64,000 nt of DNA from Flagellimonas abyssi (GTDB lineage Bacteria; Bacteroidota; Bacteroidia; Flavobacteriales; Flavobacteriaceae). The stretch spans positions 124,001 through 188,000 of the forward strand of contig NZ_JAHZSV010000008.1 in the NCBI RefSeq assembly GCF_019457905.1, read 5' to 3'. This document shows positions 31,104-42,482 of the stretch, one piece after another. Each line of letters starts with the position of its first letter. Positions within the stretch are counted from its first letter, which is position 1. The position numbers were made by a program, and so were the translations under genes. The notes beneath the pieces are model-generated. The model saw nothing but the letters and a program-made list of their open reading frames with translations. It searched no databases and was not told the origin of the DNA.

Positions 31104-31490
31104 ATGAAACAGATTTTTCATCAAATAGTATCCTCATTAATGGGCCTTTTGGTCTTGGCCTCCACGGTTTCGTGGACGGTGGACAAGCATATTTGTATGG
31201 GCCGTGTGATGGATATTTCCTTTTTTGCCCATGCCGATGATTGTGGTATGGACATGGATATGGAAAAATCCTGTTGTAATGATGAATCTTTCACCGTTCA
31301 AGGTCAAGATGACCTAAAAATCTCCTTCGAGAAGTTTGATTTGGACCAACAAGTCTTTTTGATAAGTTTTGTCCAATCCTATTTTCAGCTTTTCGAAATT
31401 GATTCCGAAGAGCCAAGTTCGTTTAGGGAGTACAACCCTCCGCCATTGATACGGGACGTGCAGGTTCTGGATCAGACTTTCCTTATTTGA
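31104..31490 (+). CDS. HYC_CC_PP family protein
   Basis: A 128-residue exported protein. The N-terminal hydrophobic segment (residues 8-26) reads as a signal or anchor. The family marks are the HICMG motif near residues 29-33, a CC pair in SCCNDE near 53, and a Pro-rich NPPPLIRDV near the C-terminus. A Met/Asp-rich stretch (DDCGMDMDMEKSCC) could bind copper. Members of this family are found next to CusA/CzcA-type pumps in Bacteroidota, as here, 94 bases before the pump gene. Function unknown; a periplasmic metal-binding or sensing role is an inference. Confidence 0.8.
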   Translation: MKQIFHQIVSSLMGLLVLASTVSWTVDKHICMGRVMDISFFAHADDCGMDMDMEKSCCNDESFTVQGQDDLKISFEKFDLDQQVFLISFVQSYFQLFEIDSEEPSSFREYNPPPLIRDVQVLDQTFLI

Positions 31491-31584: not shown

Positions 31585-34500
31585 ATGCTGAACAAAAGCA
31601 TTAAATTTTTGATAGAGAATAAACTGGTAGCCATATTGCTCCTGCTATTTTTTATGGCTTGGGGCATAGTGAGCACACCCTTTAATCGGAATACCGGTAT
31701 CTTGCCCAGCAATCCCGTTGCCGTGGATGCCATTCCGGATATTGGGGAAAACCAACAGATTGTTTTCACCAAATGGCCGGGCCGTTCCCCACAGGATATC
31801 GAAGATCAAATTACGTATCCATTAACGACTTCTTTGCTTGGTATTCCTGGAGTTAAGACCATTCGGAGTTCTTCCATGTTCGGGTTTTCCAGCATCTACA
31901 TCATTTTTGAAGAGGAAGTCGAGTTCTACTGGAGCCGTAGCCGAATTCTTGAAAAACTCAATTCATTGCCCAACAATTTATAGCCCGATGGAGTAAATCC
32001 TGCTTTAGGACCCGATGCTACAGCCTTGGGACAGATTTTCTGGTATACCTTGGAAGGTCGGGATAAGGATGGAAATGTAACAGGAGGATGGGATTTGCAG
32101 GAACTGCGAAGCGTTCAGGATTACTATGTGAAATATGCATTGTCATCTGCATCGGGCGTTTCGGAAGTTGCTTCCATTGGCGGGTTTGTGCAGGAATACC
32201 AAGTAGATGTGGATCCCGAATTGATGAAGCAATACAATGTCGGTTTAGATCAGGTCGTAAAAGCCGTTAAACAGAGCAATCGGGATATTGGCGCACAGAC
32301 CTTGGAAATCAACAAAGCTGAATACTTGGTTCGTGGATTGGGATACATCAAATCCTTGGACGACATAAAAAATGCCGTAGTTACGGCAACGGATTACACC
32401 TCCATCAGAATTAAAGATGTGGCACACGTATCCTTGGGTCCTGCTGTCCGCCGTGGTATTTTGGACAAGGAAGGTGCCGAAGTGGTCGGTGGGGTGGTTG
32501 TAGCAAGATACGGCGCCAATCCATTGGAAGTCATCAACAATGTGAAGGAAAAAATAACCGAGTTGAGTGCAGGGCTTCCCTCCAAGGAATTGAAAGACGG
32601 AACCACTTCACAACTCACCATTGTCCCTTTTTACGATAGAACAGAACTCATCCAAGAAACATTGGGAACGCTCAACGAAGCCCTGACTCTGGAAATATTG
32701 ATAACCATTTTGGTCATCGTGGTCATGGTGTTCAATCTTAGGGCCTCCGTTTTGATATCTGGACTCTTGCCCATTGCCGTTCTCATGGTGTTCATCGCCA
32801 TGAAAATGTTCAACGTGGATGCCAATATCGTTGCACTTTCGGGTATTGCCATTGCCATTGGTACGATGGTCGATGTAGGGGTAATCCTCTCGGAGAACAT
32901 AATTCGGCATATGGATGAAAATGAACAGAACCTATCGATAAACGAAGTGGTGTACAATGCGACTGCTGAGGTTTCTGGGGCCATTCTTACGGCAGTACTG
33001 ACCACCATTATCAGTTTTATACCCGTGTTCACCATGGTGGGGGCAGAAGGAAAACTATTTCGGCCGTTGGCCTTTACAAAGACCATGGCGTTGACGGCCT
33101 CTATTATTGTGGCGCTGTTCCTCATTCCACCATTTGCGGCCATTATATTCAAAAGGAAAAACCGAAAGCCCATCATTACTTATGTCTGGAACGGCATTTT
33201 GATTGCCTCGGGACTGGTTGCCATTGGTTTTGGCTATTGGTTGGGCCTGGCCTTGATTGCCTTTGGTGTTTCGGGAATCTTAAAACTCCGTCAAACTTTG
33301 GATGGGAAACAAAACAGTATGCTCAATGTGGGCATCTGCGTTGCCACCATCGCCTTTTTGCTGGCCACCTATTGGAGGCCTCTCGGTTTTGATCGTAGCA
33401 TTGCTATCAACCTGATTTTTGTGGGATTGATTTGCAGTGTTTTGCTTGGTGGGTTTTACCTGTTCCGACAATACTACAGCCGTATTTTAACATGGGCCTT
33501 GGAACATAAATTGCTATTTCTTTCCATTCCCACGGTGATTGTGGTATTCGGATTTATGATTATGCGGAACACGGGCCAAGAGTTTATGCCCTCCCTCAAT
33601 GAAGGTTCCTTTTTGTTGATGCCGACTTCCCTGCCGCATGCCGGAGTGGAAGAAAATAAACGGGTGGTACAGCAGTTGGATATGGCCGTCGCTACCATTC
33701 CAGAGATTCAAACAGTGGTTGGAAAAGCGGGAAGAACGGAATCCGCTTTGGACCCGGCGCCACTTTCCATGTACGAGAACATTATTCAGTACCGCTCGGA
33801 ATATCAAAAGAATGAAGCAGGAAGCCCCCAACGTTTTAGAGTAAATGACGATGGTTATTTTGAGTTGAGCAACGGAAAAGTGCTTGCCAACCCCAATGTA
33901 CAAGTGAGCAATGAGCAAAATTATAAGGAGAACCATGTAAGTGAACCCTTGCGAATCGACAGGAACTTATTGATTCCAGACAGTGACGGGGAATACTTTA
34001 GGAACTGGCGACCGGAAATAGAAAGTCCAGATGATATTTGGAACGAAATTGTAAAGGTGACCAGACTTCCCGGAATTACATCTGCTCCCAAGCTGCAACC
34101 CATCGAAACGCGTTTGGTGATGTTGCAAACAGGGATGCGGGCCCCAATGGGCATTAAAGTGAAGGGACAGGATTTAAAGGAAATTGAAAACTTTGGCCTT
34201 CAACTGGAGCCCATATTAAAAGAAGCGTCCGGGGTGAAGGACGAGGCGGTTTTTGCAGACCGAATCGTTGGTAAGCCCTACCTCCTTATCGATATTGACC
34301 GTGAAAAATTGGTCCGATATGGTTTGGTTATCGAGGACGTACAGCAGATTTTAGAGGTGGCCCTTGGTGGAATGCAATTGACCCAAACCGTGGAAGGAAG
34401 GGAGCGATATGGCGTTCGTGTGCGATATCCAAGGGAACTCCGCGAAAATCCAACCGATTTGAAAAATATTTATGTTCCTGTGCAAAAAGGAAGCCCGGTT

Positions 34501-35322
34501 CCTTTGAGCGAATTGGTCACCATCCGTTATGAACAAGGTCCGCAGGCCATTAAAAGTGAAGATACCTTTTTGGTAGGTTATGTACTTTTTGATAAGCTCG
34601 ATGGCTACGCTGAAGTGGATGTGGTGGAAAATGCACAGGCCAAAATCCAAGAAAAGATAAACAGTGGCGAGTTGGTGGTGCCCAAAGGTATCAGTTACCG
34701 ATTCACGGGTACCTACGAAAACCAGTTAAGGGCAAAAAAGACCTTGTCCGTCGTGGTTCCGCTGGCGTTGTTGATCATATTCTTGATTCTGTACTTCCAA
34801 TTCAAGTCAGTTGCTACCTCCATGATGGTATTTTCAGGGATTTTGGTGGCCTTTGCAGGTGGGTTTTTAATGATTTGGTTCTATGGTCAGGACTGGTTCC
34901 TCAACTTTAGTTTTATGGGCGAGAACCTCCGGGACCTTTTCCAAATCCACACCATTAACCTGAGTGTTGCGGTGTGGGTCGGATTTATCGCATTGTTTGG
35001 AATTGCTACGGATGATGGGGTGGTCATGGCCACCTACCTTACCCAAACTTTTGACAAGAACAAACCGGACAACTTGAAACAGATTCGTGCTTCGGTATTG
35101 GAAGCGGGAGAAAAACGAATAAGACCTTGTTTGATGACCACTGCGACTACCATTTTGGCACTCTTGCCCGTGCTTACCAGTACAGGTAGGGGGAGCGATA
35201 TCATGATTCCGATGGCCATTCCAAGTTTTGGTGGAATGCTCATCGCTTTGATTACACTCTTTGTAGTACCAGTGCTGTTCAGTTGGAAAAGTGAATTGCA
35301 ACTTAAAATGCAAAACCAATGA
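31585..35322 (+). pseudogene. cusA: CusA/CzcA-type heavy-metal RND pump, interrupted by an in-frame TAG
   Basis: The pump subunit exports Cu(I)/Ag(I)-type ions from the periplasm through the outer membrane using proton flow. One continuous frame of 1,245 sense codons runs from the ATG at 31585 to 35322 and is broken only by TAG at 31981-31983. The residues before it (KLNSLPNNL) and after it (PDGVNPALGPDATALGQIF) are contiguous in CusA proteins. The first part has the N-terminal helix and VDAIPDIGENQQIV; the second has both porter/funnel regions, about ten more helices and the proton-relay stretch GIATDDGVVMATYL near 34995. An extra four-helix insert lies near 33160-33470. Losing the TAG (for example TTG, Leu) would restore the gene. 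The stop overlaps the next ATG by four bases (ATGA). Confidence 0.92.
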
Positions 35323-36539
35323 AAAAAAGATTCATTTATATAATGTTTGTGCTGGCCACATTTGGGACGAAGGCCCAATCGTTGGAAAGCTATCTGCAAG
35401 AAGCGGAACAGAACAGCCCCATGATTCAGGCCTTGGAACTGCGCTACAACATTGCCAAAGAAAAGGTGAACGAAGTGAACACCTTGCCAAACACAACGGT
35501 TGCCGCAGGATATTTTGTGAGCGAACCAGAAACCAGAACGGGGGCACAAAGAGCTCGGTTTTCGGTCTCGCAGATGTTGCCTTGGTTCGGTACCATCACG
35601 GCGCGGGAGAACTACGCAAGTTCCATGGCGGAGACAGCGTATGCTGAAATTGTCATCGCCAAACGAAAACTGGCGTTGTCCTTGGCACAATCCTACTATA
35701 ATTTATATGGGATTCAGGCCAAGCAAAAGGTGCTTCAGGAAAATATTGAACTTTTGAAAACTTACGAAACCTTGGCGCTCACTTCGGTTGAAGTAGGGAA
35801 GGCTTCGGCCGTGGATATCTTAAAACTTCAAATCCGTCAGAATGAATTACAACAGCAAAAAGAGGTTTTGGAACAATCCTACTTGTCAGAGCAGGCCGTA
35901 TTCAACAATTTGCTGAATCGTGATGAAAGCATTGCCGCGGAGGTTGTGGAAGAAATGGAAATTCCTGAAGATGATACTATTTTGAACAAGGATGATTTGA
36001 GCCTCAACCCGGAGTTGCTCAAGTATGACCAATTGTATGAATCCGTAACGCAATCCGAAGTGCTCAACCAAAAGGAAAATGCACCAAGTTTCGGTATAGG
36101 TTTGGATTATATCCCCGTTTCGGAACGCGATGATATGGTTTTTAGCGATAATGGAAAGGATATTGTAATGCCGATGGTCACTTTTTCCGTGCCAATTTTC
36201 AACAACAAGTTTAAATCGACCACCAAGCAGAACGAGTTGCGTCAAAAAGAGATTGAATTTCAAAAAGAGGAGCGATTGAATGTGTTGGAAAATGCCTATG
36301 CCAGTGCCATTTCGCAACGGAACCAAGCACGTATCGCATACCGCACCCAAGCAAAGAATCTGGAGCAAGCGAAGGATGCCGAAGAAATCTTGATCAAGAG
36401 TTATGAAACCGGAACTATCAATTTCAATGATGTGCTCGATGTTCAGGAGCTGCAATTAAAATTTCAGACCAATCAAATACAATCCGTGCAGTTATATTAT
36501 ATACAATCTGCCATCATCAATTATTTAATTAACAAGTAA
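35319..36539 (+). CDS. TolC-family outer-membrane channel (CusC-like)
   Basis: The 406 residues comprise a signal peptide (MKKRFIYIMFVLATFGTKAQ) and two OEP repeats of long helices and short strands, the layout of outer-membrane efflux channels. It shares a four-base ATGA overlap with the pump gene, so it should be the exit duct of the tripartite system. The adaptor is encoded further down at 40746. There is no lipobox Cys, unlike E. coli CusC. Confidence 0.9.
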   Translation: MKKRFIYIMFVLATFGTKAQSLESYLQEAEQNSPMIQALELRYNIAKEKVNEVNTLPNTTVAAGYFVSEPETRTGAQRARFSVSQMLPWFGTITARENYASSMAETAYAEIVIAKRKLALSLAQSYYNLYGIQAKQKVLQENIELLKTYETLALTSVEVGKASAVDILKLQIRQNELQQQKEVLEQSYLSEQAVFNNLLNRDESIAAEVVEEMEIPEDDTILNKDDLSLNPELLKYDQLYESVTQSEVLNQKENAPSFGIGLDYIPVSERDDMVFSDNGKDIVMPMVTFSVPIFNNKFKSTTKQNELRQKEIEFQKEERLNVLENAYASAISQRNQARIAYRTQAKNLEQAKDAEEILIKSYETGTINFNDVLDVQELQLKFQTNQIQSVQLYYIQSAIINYLINK

Positions 36540-36555
36540 ATTTAATTTATCAAAA

Positions 36556-36891
36556 ATGAGAACAAACATCAGAACAGTGATCGGAATCACATTTGCATCG
36601 GTATTGGTGCTTACAGTATCGTGCAAGGGAAAAACGGAGGAAGCCAAGGAAACATCCACTGAGGCGACCATGGACAATGAAGGTCACGATATGGAGAAAA
36701 TGGATCATGAAAATCATGATATGCAAGGCATGGAAACTGCCAAAATGGAAGGCAAGGAGTATACCTCCAAATATGTTTGTTCTATGCATTGTGAAGGCAG
36801 TGGAAGTGATGAGGAAGGAAAATGCCCAGTTTGCGGGATGACCTATGTGTTGAACCAGGAACATATGGCCGACGGGCACACCCATAACTAA
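36556..36891 (+). CDS. Met/His-rich lipoprotein with a heavy-metal-binding domain
   Basis: A 111-residue lipoprotein (signal ending LTVSC, Cys 23). Residues 36-65 are rich in Met, His and Asp (GHDMEKMDHENHDMQGM), a pattern typical of periplasmic Cu(I)/Ag(I) binding. A zinc-ribbon-like heavy-metal-binding module follows: YVCSMHCEG, then GKCPVCGMTYV, and a His-rich tail. The same module appears twice in the P-type ATPase and once in the adaptor downstream. A metallochaperone for the RND pump, in the place of CusF, is a reasonable inference. Confidence 0.82.
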   Translation: MRTNIRTVIGITFASVLVLTVSCKGKTEEAKETSTEATMDNEGHDMEKMDHENHDMQGMETAKMEGKEYTSKYVCSMHCEGSGSDEEGKCPVCGMTYVLNQEHMADGHTHN

Positions 36892-36908: not shown

Positions 36909-37460
36909 ATGCGTATCAAGGTAAAAAATATGGTATGTGAAAGATGCAAAGGCGTTCTGAAAAATGAATTTCGGGATGTTGGCATTGAGGTGGTACAAAT
37001 TGACTTGGGAGAGGTTGAGTTGAAGGATTCGGCCATTGGCCAAATAGCACGTATTCGGGAGATTTTGACCAAGAACGGATTTGAATTGATAGAGGATGTT
37101 GATCAAACGTACATCGTTGACATCAAGAAACACTTGATCAATGCTTTGGATGACCGTTCCAATCAGAATCTCTCGGAATACTTGGCCAAAAAACTGGGCA
37201 AGAAGTATTCGGCGCTCAGTAAAATGTTCAGTGCGAAGGAGGGCTTGACCATTGAAAAATATTTTATCCTGCTCAAAATGGAGAAGGTAAAAGAAGAAAT
37301 ACAGATGGGAAACAAAACCTTCTCCGAAATTGCCTACGATTTAGACTATAAGAGCAGCAGTCACTTGGCCAAACAATTTAAATCGGTAACGGGGATGTCG
37401 ATGAGCGATTATAAGAAATTGGAGGAGTGGAACAGGAGACCTTTGGACCAAATTGTATAA
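36909..37460 (+). CDS. AraC-type regulator with an N-terminal CxxC metal-binding-like segment
   Basis: A 183-residue protein. Residues 1-65 resemble an HMA domain: strand KVKNM, then VCERC (Cys 10, Cys 13), a helix, and strands with VVQIDLGEVEL. Residues about 90-175 form an AraC double helix-turn-helix (KKYSALSKMF, then SEIAYDLDYKSSSHLAKQFKSVTGMSMSDYKK). It lies in the middle of the copper genes, 17 bases after the lipoprotein and 67 before the ATPase. A direct metal-responsive activator of this island is the best reading; this is inferred from architecture and context. Confidence 0.82.
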   Translation: MRIKVKNMVCERCKGVLKNEFRDVGIEVVQIDLGEVELKDSAIGQIARIREILTKNGFELIEDVDQTYIVDIKKHLINALDDRSNQNLSEYLAKKLGKKYSALSKMFSAKEGLTIEKYFILLKMEKVKEEIQMGNKTFSEIAYDLDYKSSSHLAKQFKSVTGMSMSDYKKLEEWNRRPLDQIV

Positions 37461-37527: not shown

Positions 37528-40026
37528 ATGAAACATACATATCACATACACGGAATGAGTTGCAATGGTTGTAGAAACCATGTGGAACAAACCCTATCTA
37601 AAGTTGCTGGGGTTAATTCAGTTGAGGTGAATTTGAAAAAGGCCGAAGCTGTGATTGAGATGGAGGAACACATTCCAATCGAAACGTTCCAAAAAGCAAT
37701 GGAAGAAGATGGTGGTAGTTATAGCATTCATATGCATGGACATCATCATGAACCCAAACAAGAAAAAAAACAGGCTACAACAAATGGCAACGGTACCTTT
37801 TATTGTCCTATGCATTGCGAAGGAGATAAAACCTACGACAAACCTGGTGATTGCCCAGTTTGTGGGATGGATTTAGTGGAGGAGCAGAATACTTCTTCCA
37901 ATTCTAATCAAAAATGGACCTGTCCCATGCACCCCGAAGTGGTTGAAAATGGACCAGGTTCCTGTCCAAAATGTGGAATGGACCTAGTGCCCAAAGTGCC
38001 CGAAACCAGTGCAGAGGAGAAGACGTACAAAAAACTGCTCAAAAAGTTTTGGATAGCGGTAGCCTTTACGTTGCCCATTTTCCTTATTGCCATGAGCGAC
38101 ATGATTCCCAATAATCCGCTCCATAAATTATTAGCGCCACAATACTGGAATTGGGTGCAATTTGCGCTGTCGATTCCCGTGGTGTTTTATGCCACTTGGA
38201 TGTTCTTTCAACGTGCCTACCGAAGCATCAGAACATGGAATTTGAACATGTTTACCCTCATTGGAATTGGAGCTGGGGTGGCTTTTGTGTTCAGTGTACT
38301 TGGATTGCTATTTCCGGAATTTTTTCCTGACCAGTTCAAGGGAGGAACCGGCGCTGTACATGTGTATTTTGAGGCCGCGACAGTAATTCTTACGCTGGTG
38401 CTATTGGGACAATTATTGGAAGCCAGGGCACATAGCAAGACCAATAACGCCGTAAAAGAATTGTTGAAACTGGCTCCCAACAAAGCCATAAAAGTGGTGG
38501 ACGGGGAAGAAGTTGAGGTCAGCATCGATGACATTGAGAAAGGGGATATTCTCCGAGTAAAACCCGGAGAAAAAATTCCTGTGGACGGTATTATTACCGA
38601 TGGAGAAACCTCTGTGGACGAATCCATGATCACAGGGGAACCCATCCCTGTTGAGAAGACGGTTGATGATAAAGTGAGCAGCGGTACTATCAACGGGAAC
38701 CAATCTTTTTTGATGAAGGCCGAAAAGGTGGGCAGTGATACGTTACTCTCACAAATCATTGATATGGTGAACCAAGCCAGCCGAAGCCGGGCACCCATTC
38801 AGAATTTGGCGGATAAGGTATCTGCCTATTTTGTGCCCATTGTGGTGATAATTTCCATAATTACCTTCGCGGTTTGGGCCGTTTGGGGTCCACAGCCCGC
38901 TTATGTCTATGCATTGATCAATGCCATTGCAGTTTTGATTATCGCTTGTCCTTGTGCACTGGGTCTTGCCACACCAATGTCCATAATGGTCGGGGTGGGT
39001 AAGGGCGCCCAAAACGGCGTGCTCATCAAAAATGCGGAAGCTTTGGAGAAACTGGCCGATGTGGACACCTTGATCATCGATAAAACGGGAACCATTACCG
39101 AAGGTAAACCCACCTTTGACCATTTGGAGGCCTTTTCGGATGACTATTCAGATAGAGATTTGTTGCAATACGTTGTTTCGGTAAATGCCAACAGTGAACA
39201 TCCATTGGCCCAGGCCACGGTGAATTATGGCAAGGAACAAGATGTACAGGTTCTACAAACTGATTCTTTCAATGCCGTAACGGGAATGGGAGTTGAAGGA
39301 AAAATCAATGGTTCCGAAGTCCATTTGGGTAACCTCAAATTGATGGAAAAGGCCAATGTCGAAATCTCTGATTCGATAAAGGAAAAGGTGATAAAATCCC
39401 AAGAAAAAGGAAAGACGGTTTCCTATTTGGCCATCGATGGAAAATGTCATGGATTTGTGGCCATTGGTGATAAAATAAAGGCAACCAGTGCCAAAGCCAT
39501 CAAAGCTATTCAGGACAGGGGAATTTCCGTAATCATGCTTACAGGCGACAATGCCAACACAGCCAAGGCGGTGGCGGGAGAACTTCATTTGGATGATTTT
39601 AAGGCAGAAGCTTTACCGGAGGATAAAATGAAGGAAGTGGAACGCCTACAAGGTGAGGGAAAAGTGGTCGCGATGGCCGGTGATGGCATCAACGACGCCC
39701 CGGCCCTCGCCAAAAGTGACTTGGGCATTGCGATGGGCACGGGTACCGATGTGGCCATAGAAAGCGCTATGGTCACTTTAGTGAAAGGTGATCTGCACGG
39801 TATCGTTAAAGCAAGGAACCTTAGTGAAGTCGTCATGAAAAACATAAAACAAAACCTATTTTTTGCATTGATATACAATACCATCGGAGTGCCCGTAGCG
39901 GCAGGGGTACTCTATCCGTTATTTGGGATATTGCTCTCACCTATGATCGCGGCTCTAGCCATGAGCTTTAGCTCCGTATCGGTGATTACCAATGCATTAC
40001 GACTACGAACTAAATCAATCGACTAA
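37528..40026 (+). CDS. copA: Cu(I)/Ag(I)-type P1B-ATPase with HMA and two heavy-metal-binding modules
   Basis: This ATPase pumps copper or silver ions out of the cytoplasm. It has 832 residues. HMA domain at 1-62 with MSCNGC (Cys 12, Cys 15); a His stretch HMHGHHHEP at 68-76; heavy-metal-binding module 1 at 90-116 ([19 protein letters not shown]); module 2 at 129-156 ([19 protein letters not shown]). The membrane part follows with the CPC motif in ACPCALG near residue 474, phosphorylation motif DKTGT near 518, TGD near 671 and GDGINDAP near 717. CPC with this helix layout fits Cu(I)-type transport. Three N-terminal metal modules is more than usual. A PepSY gene starts eight bases after its stop. 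Confidence 0.94.
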
Positions 40027-40033
40027 TACAAAA

Positions 40034-40741
40034 ATGGTAAAACGAAAAACAGCGATTAAAATTAGAAAGGCCCACAGGTATTTGGGACTGTTTTTGGGAA
40101 TACAATTCATTATGTGGACGGCCAGTGGCCTTTATTTCAGTTGGACCGATATTGATGAAATCCACGGAGACCATTTCAGGAATATGGATCATAAACCTGT
40201 TGCCTTTGATGGTCTCATCGGAAGTTCAAAAATCAACATACCGGGTAAAATAAGTTCGTTGAGCCTTAAGGAAATAGCAGGAAAACCCTACTACTGGATA
40301 AACCATGAGTTTTTGGTGGATGCGAGGGATGGAAGCCTGAAAAGCAACATTTCGGAACAAGAGGCCTTGGAAGTTGCAGCGCGTGAGATGGCACCGAGTT
40401 TAAAAGTGAAAAATGTGGAGGTCATCAAGGAAACCGATAAGCATCATGAGTATCGAGGTAGAACACTACCCGCTTATGTGATTTCTTATGATTCCCCCGA
40501 GAATATCAAGGCCTATGTTTCCCTTGCCGACGGTTCTTTTCAAACCGTACGACATCGAAACTGGAGATGGTTCGATTTTTTGTGGATGACCCACACTATG
40601 GATTATGAGGGCAGGGACGATTTTAATACAACTGTCCTTCGGGCCTTTTCCCTTTTGGGATTGATCACTGTACTGAGCGGATTTTTGCTCTGGTTTACCT
40701 CGTCGCCAACGATGCGGAAAATCGTTAAACGTAAAAAATAG
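40034..40741 (+). CDS. PepSY-domain membrane protein
   Basis: The protein has 235 residues from the ATG at 40034, eight bases after the ATPase stop; an earlier start would overlap copA by 35 bases. A helix near residues 18-36 (GLFLGIQFIMWTASGLYFSW) and another near the C-terminus (FSLLGLITVLSGFLLWF) flank a periplasmic PepSY-like region of about 150 residues. Related PepSY-TM proteins act as membrane reductases for metals, and several His residues near the helices (KAHRYLG, THTMD) could bind haem. A copper- or silver-reducing role next to the pump is inferred from context. Confidence 0.78.
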   Translation: MVKRKTAIKIRKAHRYLGLFLGIQFIMWTASGLYFSWTDIDEIHGDHFRNMDHKPVAFDGLIGSSKINIPGKISSLSLKEIAGKPYYWINHEFLVDARDGSLKSNISEQEALEVAAREMAPSLKVKNVEVIKETDKHHEYRGRTLPAYVISYDSPENIKAYVSLADGSFQTVRHRNWRWFDFLWMTHTMDYEGRDDFNTTVLRAFSLLGLITVLSGFLLWFTSSPTMRKIVKRKK

Positions 40742-40745
40742 AAAA

Positions 40746-42482
40746 ATGAAAAAGGAAAATATCATTTATATCGGAATTGCTGTGGTAGTGGGATTATTGG
40801 TCGGCTATCTCATATTTGGGGGCAGTGAAGGCAGCACTACAATGGACGAACATGATCACGGCACCGAATCTACTACCAGCGAAATGTGGACCTGTTCCAT
40901 GCATCCACAGATCATGCAGCCGGAGCCAGGATCTTGTCCCATTTGTGGTATGGACCTTATTCCTGCGGAAAGTAGCGAAGAAGGACTCATGGCCAATCAG
41001 ATTAAAATGACCCAGAATGCCATGGTGCTCGCGGGGGTGGAAACTATTCAGGTAGGTTCCCAAACTGAAGGGGAAGGTAGTGTCAAGGTTTCGGGCAAGA
41101 TTACCGTTAACCAAGAATCCGACGCGGTCCAATCAGCCTACTTTGATGGTAGGATAGAAAACATCTTCGTGAATTTTGAAGGGGAAGAGGTGCGCAAGGG
41201 CCAAAAGCTGGCCACTATTTATGCGCCGGCCTTGGTTTCGGCACAGCAAGAATTGCTGACGGCGGCCAAATTGAAGGAAACCCAACCCCAATTGTACAAA
41301 GCGGTCCGCAATAAATTAAAGCTCTGGAAGTTGTCCGAATCACAAATTGATCAAATAGAGAATTCGGGTAACGTTGTTGAAAATTTCCCGATATATTCCA
41401 ACGTCAGGGGAGTGGTTTCAAAAATAATGGTAGAGGAAGGGGATTATATCAAAACAGGTTCACCTTTGGTGAAAGTGGCCAATTTGGGCTCTGTTTGGGC
41501 CATTTTTGATGCCTATGAAAGTCAATTGGGACTTTTTGAAAAGGGTCAAACCTTGGAAATCACTACAAGATCTTACCCGAATGAAACATTTCCCGCGACA
41601 GTTTCTTTTGTTTCCCCGCTATTGAACAACAGTACAAGAACCTTGGAGGTTCGCGCGGAACTTGATAATGAAAAAGGATTGCTAAAACCCGGAATGTTCG
41701 TGCAGGCCAAGATTGAGATGTCCAAAAATGAAAAAGTTGAGGTTTTGACCATTCCCGAGAGTGCGGTTTTATGGACAGGTCAACGCTCTTTGGTGTATGT
41801 GCAGCCGGACCCTTCAACTTCGATTTTTGAAATGAGGGAGGTGGAACTGGGAAATTTGAGCAATGGAAGCTATGCGGTCAATTCGGGATTGAAACCTAGG
41901 GAACTGGTCGTTGCCAAGGGAACTTTTACGGTGGATGCCGCAGCACAATTACAGGGTAAAAAGTCCATGATGAACCAAGATGGTGAAACCATGACCATGG
42001 ACCACGAAGGCCACTCAAAAATGGGCGGAACCATGAAAATGCAATTTTCAGAAGAGGTACAGGACAAGTTTGGGGGTTTACTGGGGGTATATCTGGACCT
42101 AAAAGATGCCTTGGTAGCATCGAACAGTGAACAAACGCAGGCAATGGCACAAAAAGGAGCAAGGATAGCTTTGGACATCAGTGGTATGCAAATGGATGAT
42201 ATGGGCAGGAGCCACATGTCCCAATTGGCAGAACAACTGGCAGAAATGGCTTCAAAAAGTACATTGGAGGATCAACGTGGGATTTTTATCCAGCTTTCCC
42301 AAAACATGATCCAGATCGGACAACAAATGCAAGGTTTGGAAACGAAGATTTATGTCCAACATTGTCCTATGGCAAATAATGACAAAGGTGCGAACTGGCT
42401 GAGTTTGGAGCAAGAAATACGAAATCCTTACTATGGTGATGCCATGCTTACCTGTGGCAGTGTGGTAGGAACCATCGAATAG
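40746..42482 (+). CDS. cusB: RND efflux periplasmic adaptor (CusB-like) with heavy-metal-binding and DUF3347 domains
   Basis: The adaptor links the RND pump to the outer channel. It has 578 residues: an N-terminal membrane anchor (6-25), a heavy-metal-binding module at 48-76 (WTCSMHPQIM, CPICGMDLIP), a membrane-fusion core with barrel-sandwich and alpha-hairpin at about 100-390, a Met/His patch near residues 412-430 (TMTMDHEGHSKMGGTMKM), and a C-terminal DUF3347 domain ending with YVQHCPMANNDKGANWLS and LTCGSV. The added ends are common in Bacteroidota copper adaptors. It starts four bases after the PepSY gene and closes the island. Confidence 0.92.
   Translation: MKKENIIYIGIAVVVGLLVGYLIFGGSEGSTTMDEHDHGTESTTSEMWTCSMHPQIMQPEPGSCPICGMDLIPAESSEEGLMANQIKMTQNAMVLAGVETIQVGSQTEGEGSVKVSGKITVNQESDAVQSAYFDGRIENIFVNFEGEEVRKGQKLATIYAPALVSAQQELLTAAKLKETQPQLYKAVRNKLKLWKLSESQIDQIENSGNVVENFPIYSNVRGVVSKIMVEEGDYIKTGSPLVKVANLGSVWAIFDAYESQLGLFEKGQTLEITTRSYPNETFPATVSFVSPLLNNSTRTLEVRAELDNEKGLLKPGMFVQAKIEMSKNEKVEVLTIPESAVLWTGQRSLVYVQPDPSTSIFEMREVELGNLSNGSYAVNSGLKPRELVVAKGTFTVDAAAQLQGKKSMMNQDGETMTMDHEGHSKMGGTMKMQFSEEVQDKFGGLLGVYLDLKDALVASNSEQTQAMAQKGARIALDISGMQMDDMGRSHMSQLAEQLAEMASKSTLEDQRGIFIQLSQNMIQIGQQMQGLETKIYVQHCPMANNDKGANWLSLEQEIRNPYYGDAMLTCGSVVGTIE

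Follow-up and report, generated by a model that had tools for sequence, protein, structure and literature searches.

A resident cusA probably lost to a recent nonsense mutation in Flagellimonas abyssi, whose assembly also contains a second CusA on a metal island

In the genome of Flagellimonas abyssi considered here (G000, a draft assembly of 4.4 Mb in 111 contigs), the resident gene for a CusA-type metal pump is interrupted by one in-frame TAG. This is no chance open reading frame but a conserved gene, interrupted once. I propose, with a probability of about two in three, that the TAG is a genuine and very recent nonsense mutation that has turned the resident cusA into a pseudogene, and that its loss was tolerated because the strain had acquired, by horizontal transfer, an island with an intact CusA. 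The literal content of the finding is an ordinary recent pseudogene. Its interest comes from the context, in which a mobile copper pump seems to be taking the place of the resident one, several times over and still at an early stage.

A conserved gene with one stop codon

The window, the stretch of 64,000 nucleotides that was analysed (C93:124001-188000), contains a copper operon in the order cusA-cusC-HMBD-AraC-ATPase-PepSY-cusB (Table 1). An earlier note, made from the sequence alone, described the cusA frame as continuous apart from the TAG, and so it proved: there is a single internal stop, at codon 133, ahead of the proper final stop. A Pfam search of the window copy found matches to PF00873 in both pieces, to either side of the TAG. 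The note also took the residues flanking the stop (KLNSLPNNL and PDGVNPALGP) to be normally joined. The frame is indeed conserved across them, but in relatives one leucine stands between the two. Translation should end after 132 residues, so that this copy would give no functional pump, barring a sequencing error at that base.

Table 1. Features of the resident copper operon, in coordinates of the window
Feature	Position	Strand	Remarks
Small upstream protein (orf128), HYC_CC_PP family (NF047658)	31104..31490	+	intact here; carries a frameshift in G022
Resident cusA (HME-RND metal pump)	31585..35322	+	one in-frame stop; protein 94% identical to intact 1246-aa orthologue
Internal TAG	31981..31983	+	Leu codon in genus orthologues
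cusC-like outer membrane channel gene (OEP)	35319..36539	+	intact
Small protein with heavy-metal-binding domain (HMBD)	36556..36891	+	intact
AraC-type regulator	36909..37460	+	intact here; absent at this place in G018, G091
Copper-type P-type ATPase	37528..40026	+	intact
PepSY-associated membrane protein	39992..40741	+	intact; listed start overlaps ATPase, true start may be later
cusB-like periplasmic adaptor, HMBD + DUF3347	40746..42482	+	intact

What stands in place of the TAG in relatives is clear. Among the 71 genomes searched within the genus, 34 have a resident cusA, this type being defined by a protein identity of at least 87%. Leucine occupies the codon of the stop in all 32 of the other orthologues that are readable there (33 others in all; G014 has no letters at that place), written as TTG in 26 and with other leucine codons in six. 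The nearest relative, G064, has TTG at the codon within an intact cusA that is 94.2% identical in DNA. A natural gene boundary at the TAG was rejected, since the relatives show none there. Where the records with the most similar cusA are named, the label is in most cases Muricauda, Allomuricauda or Flagellimonas.

The leucine is kept by CusA relatives across the family, the exception being a distant, partial one (L036) with phenylalanine; the other RND pumps of G000 (L001-L008) differ from leucine at this place. No relative examined has a stop at the codon. When 110 genomes of the family were drawn, each from its own genus and G000 included, 75 gave a CusA match at E <= 1e-280, and G000 alone had an internal stop, at a cut-off that would hide short fragments. 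A few matches in this draw were partial in protein coverage, among them the early-ending second copy of G185.

The damage does not extend to the rest of the operon. The seven genes other than cusA (orf128, cusC, HMBD, AraC, copA, PepSY and cusB) are single open frames in the window, and in most relatives the alignment covers roughly the whole of each, in agreement with the statement of the earlier note that the remaining copper genes, channel and adaptor included, are intact. Elsewhere the operon does vary. The AraC gene is absent between the HMBD gene and the P-type ATPase in G018 and G091, where gaps of 27 and 22 bases, respectively, take the place of the 638 to 654 bases measured where the gene is present (G000, G022 and G064). 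In eight genomes PepSY has stops between positions 3 and 13, which were set aside as preceding the likely true start; a further stop at 217 in G018 was counted as damage. PepSY was not found in G062 in the operon comparison, and genes missing or cut in G090, G030 and G014 were attributed to contig ends. A further RND pump gene, with a 1102-aa frame and no internal stop, lies 2.1 kb past the end of the window (G000:C93:190122-193193).

If the loss of the resident cusA is real, it is probably young, as judged by the substitutions in the gene. The ratio dN/dS between G000 and G064 is 0.034, as against 0.017 to 0.044 in 13 other pairs, and selection on the gene looks to have been normal until very recently. 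An excess of amino-acid changes on the G000 side was found with p=0.30, 0.17 and 0.017, according to which of three outgroups was used, and at columns that are otherwise invariant G000 departs twice (W35R and K753R, in G027 numbering), as compared with four times for the intact G064. Relaxed selection in the cusA of G000 was thus looked for and not clearly found. General decay of the genome is the less likely account. Internal stops are absent from the 12 other full-length RND pump genes matched in G000, and likewise from the four matches to the second CusA, and the remaining genes of the operon are undamaged.

A second CusA on a metal island

The same assembly contains an intact second CusA (C42:24233-27961), 81% identical to the window protein. 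Near it on C42 are CusB-like RND adaptors that score over the TIGR01730 cut-off and TolC-type channels whose weak matches fall under theirs. The contig also carries a match to a copper multicopper oxidase (426.6 bits, under the cut-off of 478.95). Two copper-type P-type ATPases, as well as MerA and MerTP, pass their respective cut-offs. One of the three possibilities raised in the earlier note was that the strain has just lost its main periplasmic copper/silver exporter. Recent loss of this copy of cusA is the best reading, but with an intact CusA on C42 and CusB-like and TolC-like genes nearby, the loss of the main exporter is not supported.

Then there is the near identity of this region in different species. 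C42 is 99.98% identical to contig C25 of G022 over 50,197 bp (9 differences) and 99.955% identical to contig C1 of G001 over 52,778 bp, and all three genomes have the same island cusA, at 100% identity. The resident cusA genes, in contrast, are 81.3% identical in DNA between G000 and G022 and again between G000 and G001, and the island-bearing species' own cusA genes are about 81-83% alike. An island so nearly identical, in genomes whose resident cusA genes are so different, shows recent horizontal transfer of about 50 kb between species.

The island holds a long run of further genes besides those for copper and mercury. In G001, tyrosine integrases edge the shared stretch on both sides; C42 has an IS21-type pair at its start, and its right end lies inside a tyrosine integrase. 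Integrases at the edge are what an integrative conjugative or mobilizable element would have, and the island is a candidate for one. The island stands on a separate contig of a draft, and its membership in the G000 genome is likely; the IS21-type element has a 91% relative on another G000 contig, which fits C42 belonging to that genome. About 12-14 kb outside the shared stretch, G001 carries a TraG-like gene and a DUF5712 protein with a weak relaxase match, under cut-off. No near-identical copy of this region was found in G000, where the best match, on another contig, is 78%.

Two other observations concern the surroundings of the island. Just outside the shared stretch on C25 of G022 is a CusA-like fragment of 284 aa (L162:6149-7003), corresponding to the C-terminal part of ACR_tran, which is perhaps a remnant of an earlier pump. 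The same 38 bases occur at two contig ends of G000 (C45:1-38 and C28:86537-86574) and match G001 just past the right island integrase; they are possibly an attachment site or a repeat.

Repeated loss within the genus

The interruption in G000 is not the only one. Of the 34 genomes with a resident cusA, four have it in broken form, each through a mutation of its own. G000 has the TAG at codon 133, G018 has a TAA at codon 1100, G001 has lost 13 bp, and G010 has gained a single base pair. Of the remaining 30 genes, 29 are full-length and open, and that of G014, split over two contig ends, was scored as not broken. The four broken genes lie apart on the cusA tree, with weak support (41 and 48) at the nodes near G001 and G018.

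All four genomes carry a second CusA, at 78-82% identity. The resident gene is broken in four of the eight carriers of such a copy and in none of the 26 non-carriers (Fisher p=0.0015, to be taken, like the other p-values of this association, as a guide only, the 78-82% label having been picked after seeing the data). The nearest relative, G064, is one in which no 78-82% copy was found at E <= 1e-100. The figures become 4/7 and 0/27 for the 81-82% type alone (p=0.00075), 4/8 and 0/21 when only genomes at least 90% complete are counted (p=0.0029), and 3/7 and 0/25 when G010 and G014 are left out (p=0.0071). With a looser definition, any second CusA-like gene of at least 54% identity, the association is not significant (4/18 and 0/16, p=0.105), and for the 54-66% type alone p=1.0. 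Among the 29 copies of the 78-82% CusA listed, none has a stop.

The other four carriers (G002, G022, G059 and G080) keep an intact resident cusA; in one of them, G022, the small gene that precedes it carries a frameshift of one base. The pattern recurs in a second island lineage, the B-type cusA being 99.97% identical between G018 and G080, as against 82.2% for their resident cusA. G091 runs against the pattern, having lost its AraC gene although it has no 78-82% copy. Among the 37 genomes that lack the resident type, 18 are listed with such a copy, as compared with 8 of the 34 that have it; if those copies stood at the resident locus, this would fit complete replacement in some of them.

These observations may be brought together as follows. 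A metal island of about 50 kb would have been acquired by horizontal transfer, bringing with it an intact CusA and its CusB-like and TolC-like partners. Provided that this strain uses the island pump to export copper or silver, it would make the resident pump redundant, and this redundancy would be the reason that the resident cusA could be lost. The hand-over would have been repeated independently in the genus, as suggested by four lesions, all alongside a close second CusA, the numbers being small.

A stronger version of the proposal, which I put forward tentatively and consider well short of even in likelihood, is that two nearly equivalent CusA pumps are costly, through membrane load or mispaired CusA-CusB-CusC, and that inactivation of the resident copy was selected each time. 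If true, copper export in the genus would have passed again and again from the chromosome to a mobile element, in a way that can be dated, and would here be observed at the first mutation.

Alternative explanations

The TAG could be a sequencing or assembly error, the resident cusA being intact. A single-base difference in a draft of 111 contigs is the kind of change that such an error would make, and the normal appearance of selection on the gene is what one would expect of an intact pump. Against this, three other genomes have lesions in the same gene, one of them a 13-bp deletion, which makes true loss likelier beforehand, and the dozen other full-length RND genes of G000 are free of stops. 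I judge an error to be unlikely. The mutation might instead be real and have no causal link with the island: the gene would have been lost neutrally, or conditionally so, for example in culture or in low-copper water, and the association would have arisen by chance or through an excess of mobile elements in some genomes. The sample is small, the association weakens under the looser definition of a second copy, and four carriers keep both genes, all of which speak for such a view; what speaks against it is that no non-carrier has a broken gene whereas half of the carriers do, and that G000 alone has an internal stop among the 75 family matches obtained at a cut-off that hides short fragments. 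This explanation I find more doubtful still.

It was also suggested in the earlier note that the TAG is read through, and one might imagine that it is recoded, giving a full-length pump. The frame downstream is perfectly kept, and selection looks normal up to now, as read-through would predict. The suggestion nevertheless finds no support, and recoding was rejected on three counts: usage of TAG, tRNA anticodons and PylS. TAG terminates 13 of the 46 open reading frames of at least 150 aa, chosen mechanically, in the window. One of these is mreB, whose TAG-ended product can be aligned along all 342 aa with four of five relatives, the fifth stretch stopping inside the gene. Of the 40 tRNA matches in G000 (150 of 260 initial candidates being scored), 39 were given an anticodon by ARAGORN, in no case CUA. 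The fortieth (L254:131-203; C82:258280-258352) is weak, at 36.8 bits, with a short D-arm and no call by ARAGORN; it was rejected as a suppressor, since its anticodon loop, in my reading of the Rfam alignment, is CAA. PylS had no match in G000. Together with the lack of a stop at this place in any relative examined, this makes read-through highly improbable. A last view has the 132-aa and 1098-aa parts made separately and working together. The first start-like in-frame codon past the TAG, a TTG at 32026, lies 42 bases downstream and begins a listed ORF of 1098 aa, so that it could serve as a start. It is not used as a gene start in relatives, the relatives seen have no boundary here, and the second piece would be without the first membrane helix of the RND topology. 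A split gene in this sense deserves hardly any credence. Apart from these matters, four tandem tRNA-Glu genes of equal score, spaced by 147 bases, were observed on C22 (L236, C22:28176-28688).

Significance and comparison with known systems

The preferred reading, a recent nonsense mutation tolerated after acquisition of the island, makes this a further instance of an evolutionary process already known, as opposed to a system of a new type. In the literature, covered for the most part by titles and the beginnings of abstracts, the case was not found described. The 71 genomes amount to a natural experiment on a small scale, in which a chromosomal pump has been lost by different mutations, so far only beside a close second pump, and they allow a test of the speed at which mobile metal resistance displaces resident resistance. 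They also carry a warning, that copper sensitivity is not to be called from one broken cusA.

The pump itself is best compared with CusA of E. coli. The intact orthologue from G027 scores 784.7 bits against TIGR00914, the model of the CusA/CzcA family, and the island copy 782.1 bits, over a cut-off of 701.45, and the best solved relative of the orthologue by sequence is E. coli CusA (PDB 3ne5 and others). Both the window copy and the island copy keep methionine at the places aligned with the three methionines of the CusA metal site, which would favour CusA (copper/silver) over CzcA; the third stretch of the alignment was cut off after the site. The likeness to E. coli CusA thus extends to the family cut-off, passed by the intact orthologue, and to the methionines. 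The differences are the internal stop of the window copy, the length of the protein (about 1246 aa here as compared with 1054 for the PDB chain) and the gene order of the operon given above.

In xenologous gene displacement, a resident gene is displaced by a horizontally acquired homologue. The term occurs in at least part of the text of PMC1274311, PMC6427688 and PMC3091735. The likeness here is that a gene from the resident pump's own family has come in on an island of recent transfer, and that the resident copy has been inactivated. The difference is that the resident locus is still nearly whole, which suggests an early stage, and that the process would be repeated within one genus.

Alteromonas macleodii belongs to a different phylum from Flagellimonas. 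Its copper-resistance islands (PMC8478169) resemble the present case in that copper genes of marine bacteria are mobile or plasmid-borne; loss of a resident pump is not described in the accessible portion of that account. A recently broken RND pump gene is known from Brucella ovis, where bepE is a pseudogene, and the abstract of that paper (PMC12306736) speaks of general pseudogenization in a host-restricted lineage. The contrast is with a free-living marine genus in which the broken pump is accompanied by an acquired replacement.
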